Origin: Bacteroidota bacterium
GTDB taxonomy: Bacteria > Bacteroidota > Bacteroidia > 2-12-FULL-35-15
Assembly: GCA_029237775.1 (NCBI GenBank)
Contig: JAQZBR010000002.1
Coordinates: 310,001-374,000 of the forward strand
Direction of reading: 5' to 3'
DNA: 64,000 bases
Positions within the stretch are counted from its first letter, which is position 1, and the number at the start of each line of letters is the position of its first letter. The notes under the pieces were generated by a model. That model did not search any database, was not told where the DNA came from, and worked only from the letters and a program-made list of their open reading frames with translations. This document shows positions 105 to 59,816 of the stretch, piece after piece. The position numbers and the translations under genes are program-made.

Positions 105-240
105 AAGATTCTGATTTCGAAGCTGCGCGCGGGAATGAATCAACCCGATGCAGTGTTGTCTGTGGGAAGCGACCGTTGATTCTTGTCCCGATAGCTATCG
201 GGATTTTTGTAACTTTTTGTGTCAAGACAAAAAGTTAAAT
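105..240 (-). repeat. composite stem-loop intergenic element, copy A (inverse orientation, nested palindrome)
   Basis: AACTTTTTGT/ACAAAAAGTT (211-236), TCCCGATAGCTATCGGGA (186-203), GAATCAAC/GTTGATTC (137-144 / 175-182). Confidence 0.8.
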
Positions 241-59680: not shown

Positions 59681-59708
59681 AGTCAAATATCGTGAAATAA
59701 TAGTCATT

Positions 59709-59816
59709 TAACTTTTTGTCTTGATACAAAAGTTACAGAAAAATCAAGAACCAACGATCTCTCCAAACGGGCAACACGACATCGCGTTGGTTCAAGCCTT
59801 ACGCGCGTCTTCGTAG
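59709..59816 (+). repeat. composite stem-loop intergenic element, copy B
   Basis: AACTTTTTGT/ACAAAAGTT hairpin, then GAACCAACG (59748-59756)-28 nt-CGTTGGTTC (59785-59793), then CGCGCGTCTTCG. Confidence 0.85.

Follow-up and report, generated by a model that had tools for sequence, protein, structure and literature searches.

Among described mobile DNA, the repeat family reported here lies closest to REPs, which are 20–40 bp long (PMC3733652), and to MITEs such as MITECca01 of Cardinium (PMC9769881). Transposases of the TnpA_REP type are relevant here as well, and those of subclass 2.6, from Bacteroidetes, have been reported with atypical flanking secondary structures (PMC6006769). Like REPs and REPtrons, the elements are short, non-coding intergenic hairpins that occur in tens of copies and sometimes as inverted doublets; they differ in being longer (~108 or 182 bp), in having a hairpin loop that can pair with sequence downstream of it, and in not being found beside the Y1 genes examined. 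The GT[AG]G foot of REPs is absent 5′ of the first hairpin (P1), where T-rich, non-conserved sequence is found instead, and GTAG occurs in the element only 3′ of its CTTCG motif, in part of the copies. With MITEs the family shares the character of a short, non-coding, multi-copy sequence whose number varies between species. By behaviour it is REP/MITE-like, yet by test it belongs to neither class.

The window, by which we mean the whole 64-kb stretch of Bacteroidota DNA that was analysed, contains two copies of the element, A and B (Table 1); under the covariance model described below, the third-best place in it scores 19.5 bits, compared with 105 and 85 for B and A. An earlier note on this DNA had described two composite stem-loops with their parts in the same order and with central loops of 28 nt identical at 19 of 28 positions, and re-examination of the window sequence upheld this description, as well as the T-A to C-G double change between the central arms of A and B, which is genuine. 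The hairpin arms that it reported are present but needed correction, as the first hairpin of B is short of one A and the ninth central pair of A is G/G, leaving 8 bp. Two features had been overlooked, namely an 18-bp palindrome nested in A and the complementarity between the P1 loop and a downstream stretch. The palindrome, TCCCGATAGCTATCGGGA, has five exact copies genome-wide, two of which are nested at the same place in element copies, and TCCCG..CGGGA palindromes resembling it lie inside other copies of the element (L054, 1501-1633; L134; L140).

Table 1. Positions of the two element copies and their parts in the 64-kb window.
Feature	Position	Strand	Basis
Copy B, whole element	59708-59816	+	cmsearch 105.1 bits, E 3e-19
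Copy B, P1 hairpin AACTTTTTGT-CTTGAT-ACAAAAGTT, 3′ arm with one A lost	59710-59734	+	sequence, helix counts
Copy B, P1 5′ arm AACTTTTTGT	59710-59719	+	
Copy B, P1 loop CTTGAT, complement of ATCAAG at 59743-59748	59720-59725	+	phylum-wide N-N′ covariation, 89/92
Copy B, P1 3′ arm ACAAAAGTT	59726-59734	+	
Copy B, ATCAAG, downstream partner of P1 loop (pseudoknot-type helix)	59743-59748	+	
Copy B, P2 5′ arm GAACCAACG	59748-59756	+	
Copy B, conserved CATCG preceding P2 3′ arm	59780-59784	+	alignments A1, A4
Copy B, P2 3′ arm CGTTGGTTC; 28-nt loop between P2 arms	59785-59793	+	
Copy B, conserved tail AAGCCTTACGCGCGTCTTCG	59794-59813	+	alignments A1, A4
Copy B, CGCGCG in tail	59802-59807	+	
Copy B, CTTCG in tail	59809-59813	+	
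Copy A, whole element, lengthened by nested palindrome	115-238	-	cmsearch 85.4 bits, E 2.6e-15
Copy A, P1 hairpin AACTTTTTGT-CTTGAC-ACAAAAAGTT	211-236	-	sequence
18-bp perfect palindrome TCCCGATAGCTATCGGGA, nested in copy A at the N′TCAAG site	186-203	no strand	sequence
Copy A, P2 5′ arm GAATCAACG	174-182	-	
Copy A, P2 3′ arm GGTTGATTC, all but the innermost of its 9 positions paired	137-145	-	
Copy A, conserved tail, CGCGC..CTTCG	118-131	-	

P1 is a hairpin of 10 to 11 bp with the loop CTTGAN. Shortly 3′ of it, beyond CAAAA, lies N′TCAAG, with which the loop can pair, giving the topology of an H-type pseudoknot. Immediately 3′ of TCAAG stands P2, a 9-bp stem with strongly variable arms, and in the 3′ part of the element CATCG precedes the P2 3′ arm, which is followed by a tail with CGCGC and CTTCG. 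The shared module, 38 nt long with a 10-bp hairpin, reads NNNCTTTTNN-CTTGAN-N′N′AAAAGN′N′N′-CAAAA-n-N′TCAAG. Arm covariation, on which the earlier note had let its claim stand or fall, lies far above shuffled and slid controls when 99 distinct copies, taken from this species and its relatives, are considered together. Paired cells make up 97.5% of 1916, double-sided changes are found in 17 of 20 pairs, and covariation scores 0.635, where shuffled alignments give 0.188 and slid ones at most 0.132; fitting the alignments to the model structure leans these counts towards it. An alignment made with MAFFT without using structure (A1) gave the same covariation picture. Among 92 distinct 38-mers from many genera, N and N′ form a Watson-Crick pair in 89 (TA 47, AT 24, CG 18), compared with a mean of 36 and a maximum of 53 after shuffling; these sequences share ancestry, so no probability is implied. 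The inner pairs of P1 are formed in up to 91 of the 92 distinct modules, and sequence constraint beyond pairing is evident at CTTTT, CTTGA, CAAAA and TCAAG. The pseudoknot-type pairing of loop and downstream stretch is the distinctive feature of the family. H-type RNA pseudoknots likewise pair a hairpin loop with downstream sequence and have an A-rich loop after a stem; the element differs from them in being almost without G-U pairs, in varying between species, and in standing in both orientations to genes.

A simple pattern search of the genome returned about a dozen copies, and a covariance model trained on 12 of these raised the number to 30 in the 4.08-Mb genome (E ≤ 1e-5), a lower bound given that 150 candidates were scored. 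All 30 are intergenic, the one overlap being with a merely predicted 109-codon frame, and the orientations of the flanking genes (++ 10, -- 9, -+ 6, +- 2) reveal no fixed orientation. The model also matches 38 of 59 relatives; the further copies that the earlier note had made a test of its claim do exist. Within the genus there are two size classes, of ~108 and ~182 bp, the longer having an additional inner hairpin, and species of the same genus carry from none to more than 40 copies per genome. No element scored above the gathering threshold of any family in Rfam 15, and no published description was found in the open-access literature, whether by sequence or by topic. The family consists of short, non-coding, dispersed DNA repeats that are apparently undescribed.

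Across a phylum-wide sample of 398 genomes, the covariance model matches 70; outside the genus most of these matches are weak, since no more than about the first 38 nt are shared there. The exact module pattern with one mismatch allowed is present in 58 of the 398, the reversed control giving zero throughout, and the earlier guess that a AACTTTTTGT..ACAAAAAGTT motif would prove common across Bacteroidota was borne out by these phylum scans. When named genomes were scanned with a fixed module pattern, at least 120 stretches matched; among the 80 matches listed, 78 are from Bacteroidota or relatives (Balneolaceae, Rhodothermia, Ignavibacteriales, Neomarinimicrobiota), and carriers include Chryseobacterium, Flavobacterium, Mucilaginibacter, Parabacteroides and Elizabethkingia. 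The body 3′ of the module has a lineage-specific sequence, yet where examined by eye it is again a segmented hairpin. The other two of the 80 listed come from Propionigenium maris (Fusobacteriota) and a Patescibacteria MAG (L440 and L394); these modules outside the usual range reflect either transfer or binning error.

Comparison of orthologous sites suggests that the elements are not fixed in place. Copy A is flanked by aroE and uvrB, which stand 209 bp apart here; in G009 and G029, two relatives with uvrB 95-98% identical, copy A is missing and the gap measures 48 and 54 bp, respectively. No module was detected in this gap in any other relative that keeps the gene pair. Since sister species lack copy A in this gap, the elements are evidently gained and lost over time. 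A comparison within a second genus showed three intergenic elements of G329 to have no counterpart at the corresponding sites in its relative G446, where the gaps differ in other ways too. No insertion event was seen at base-pair resolution among the relatives compared, because the nearest of them are too diverged. In 95 copies the core element has neither a fixed end nor a target-site duplication, the best offsets for the latter being no better than expected from thousands of tries, and terminal inverted repeats were not found for the core alone; in these respects the core differs from MITEs. The likeness to MITEs is greater in the sister genome G030, where the core forms part of a larger unit of ~240 bp, repeated almost without change and ending in the inverted sequences GTRAAGYTTTCRAAATAA (L085-L104, about 20 copies examined), and where 4-bp direct repeats, e.g. 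TAGG, TAAG and TTAG, border the unit in part of the copies.

No autonomous version of the element and no mobilising gene was found. Y1 transposases were examined because of the atypical structures reported beside subclass 2.6, and one may postulate that the elements are the cognate REPs of a TnpA_REP (RAYT) transposase, for instance of that subclass. A Bacteroidota host, multi-copy intergenic hairpins, inverted doublets and the description of subclass 2.6 itself (PMC6006769) all speak for this; nevertheless, no module lay beside Y1 transposase genes at any of 44 loci in carrier genomes under a strict detector, the single match that a looser detector gave in 71 Y1 loci, partly overlapping these, was poor and chance-like, and the association was rejected on these two scans. 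Moreover, the single Y1 gene of this genome (L025, G000:C5:278584-278928) has no flanking element copy, no Y1 match was found in G029 despite its 23 copies, and the REP-type foot is missing, all of which makes this explanation very improbable. The motifs DHCH and YVVNQKEHH of the genome's own Y1 gene, read by eye from the DNA, resemble those of subclass 1.2 (PMC6006769). Mobilisation by a reverse transcriptase was rejected in turn, since presence of such a gene does not track copy number: RVT_1 has no match in G029, G033, G034, G010 or G026, despite 7-23 copies in each. We give the least credence of all to an integron-like process, in which a site-specific recombinase would act on the module and yield head-to-tail arrays. 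The elements do resemble attC sites in their imperfect palindromes, freely varying arms and some same-orientation arrays, and head-to-tail arrays occur in several genomes, with 38 tandem neighbour pairs within 700 bp; however, the genes between array copies are ordinary chromosomal genes at variable spacing, not one cassette per site, on which ground integron-like arrays were rejected, and many arrays are plain tandem duplications, flanks included. The element is also without the conserved R-box arm ends of attC sites.

A different possibility is that the copies are transcribed and that a structured RNA, with an H-type pseudoknot and a hairpin, serves as a multi-copy small RNA or as an element of transcript stability or processing. 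The pseudoknot topology with its A-rich third loop and the conserved unpaired motifs are consistent with this, and on either strand RNA minimum free energies fall well below those of dinucleotide-shuffled sequences, with phylum-wide mean z of -3.6 and -3.2. A preference for folding of the opposite strand is strong in raw RNA energies; it vanishes or slightly reverses against dinucleotide shuffles, and was dismissed as a composition effect. A selected RNA fold should tolerate G-U pairs, however, and the element does not favour them: among about 1,900 P1 and P2 cells of copies from the genus, 12 are G-T (0.6%) and 28 A-C, so that G-U is no commoner than A-C, whereas the 101 pairs of the RNase P encoded in this window include 8 G-U (8%) and 1 A-C. 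The near-absence of G-U favours a DNA hairpin over RNA, and it points either to pairing at the level of DNA or to replication copying one arm onto the other. In P2 of the own genus, A-C outnumbers G-T by 20 to 4 over distinct arm pairs (p 0.0015), an excess that would fit folded RNA or single-stranded DNA from the opposite strand; phylum-wide the figures are 28 and 20, which is not significant. Given also that the copies have no orientation relative to flanking genes, vary in presence between species and lack an Rfam match, we regard a structured RNA as unlikely. The earlier note had offered a small RNA, a REP-like element or a mobile hairpin as identities; the first is unsupported, since the helices show no preference for G-U and the copies no set direction relative to genes, and the latter two fit best. 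Less likely again is covariation that reflects no function at all. Template switching during replication is a known mechanism in quasi-palindromes generally, and by copying arm onto arm it could make pairing a mutational by-product in degenerating repeats, in agreement with helices that are near-perfect and keep almost only Watson-Crick pairs; by itself, however, it would not account for elements at new sites, nor for the conservation of CTTTT, CTTGA, CAAAA and TCAAG between genera. It can coexist with mobility of the elements.

On balance, the elements are probably non-autonomous mobile DNA of the REP/MITE kind, with a folded module recognised by a trans-acting mobiliser. A trans-acting protein would recognise the module as folded single-stranded DNA, e.g. 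on the lagging-strand template, and would then move or copy the element; Watson-Crick pairing would be kept because it is the fold, and not the arm sequence, that is recognised. Several points count against mobile DNA: the core showed no target-site duplication or fixed end, neither an autonomous version nor a mobilising gene was found, no insertion was seen to the base pair, the module is under strong sequence constraint beyond pairing and has an A-rich third loop, as found in RNA pseudoknots, and the A-C excess in P2 of the own genus would fit a folded RNA as well as single-stranded DNA. More tentatively, as a possibility on which we would not insist, the 38-nt hairpin-plus-pseudoknot module may be the recognition signal of an undescribed mobilisation system common to Bacteroidota and their close relatives, in which the protein acts on folded single-stranded DNA with the loop locked to the downstream stretch and each lineage adds its own variable hairpin body. 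If the elements are mobile DNA as proposed, a single unannotated repeat family is dispersed between the genes of many Bacteroidota; it would contribute to variation among genomes and, as it covaries without G-U pairs, be a trap for searches for RNA motifs, and it would point to a mobiliser not yet known.

Several further observations concern the arrangement and setting of the copies. Where inverted doublets occur (L030, L040, L111, L151, L256, L396, L438), the modules mostly face outwards, with about 8 such cases to 2 of the other kind. The exact module is also present in 22 stretches of IMG/VR contigs (L494-L515), which may be phage, prophage or misfiled chromosome. Finally, seven modules in the same orientation lie within a surface-polysaccharide gene cluster (L139, G391:C5:20000-38000), which includes a NusG-like (UpxY-type) frame, so named from its translation alone.
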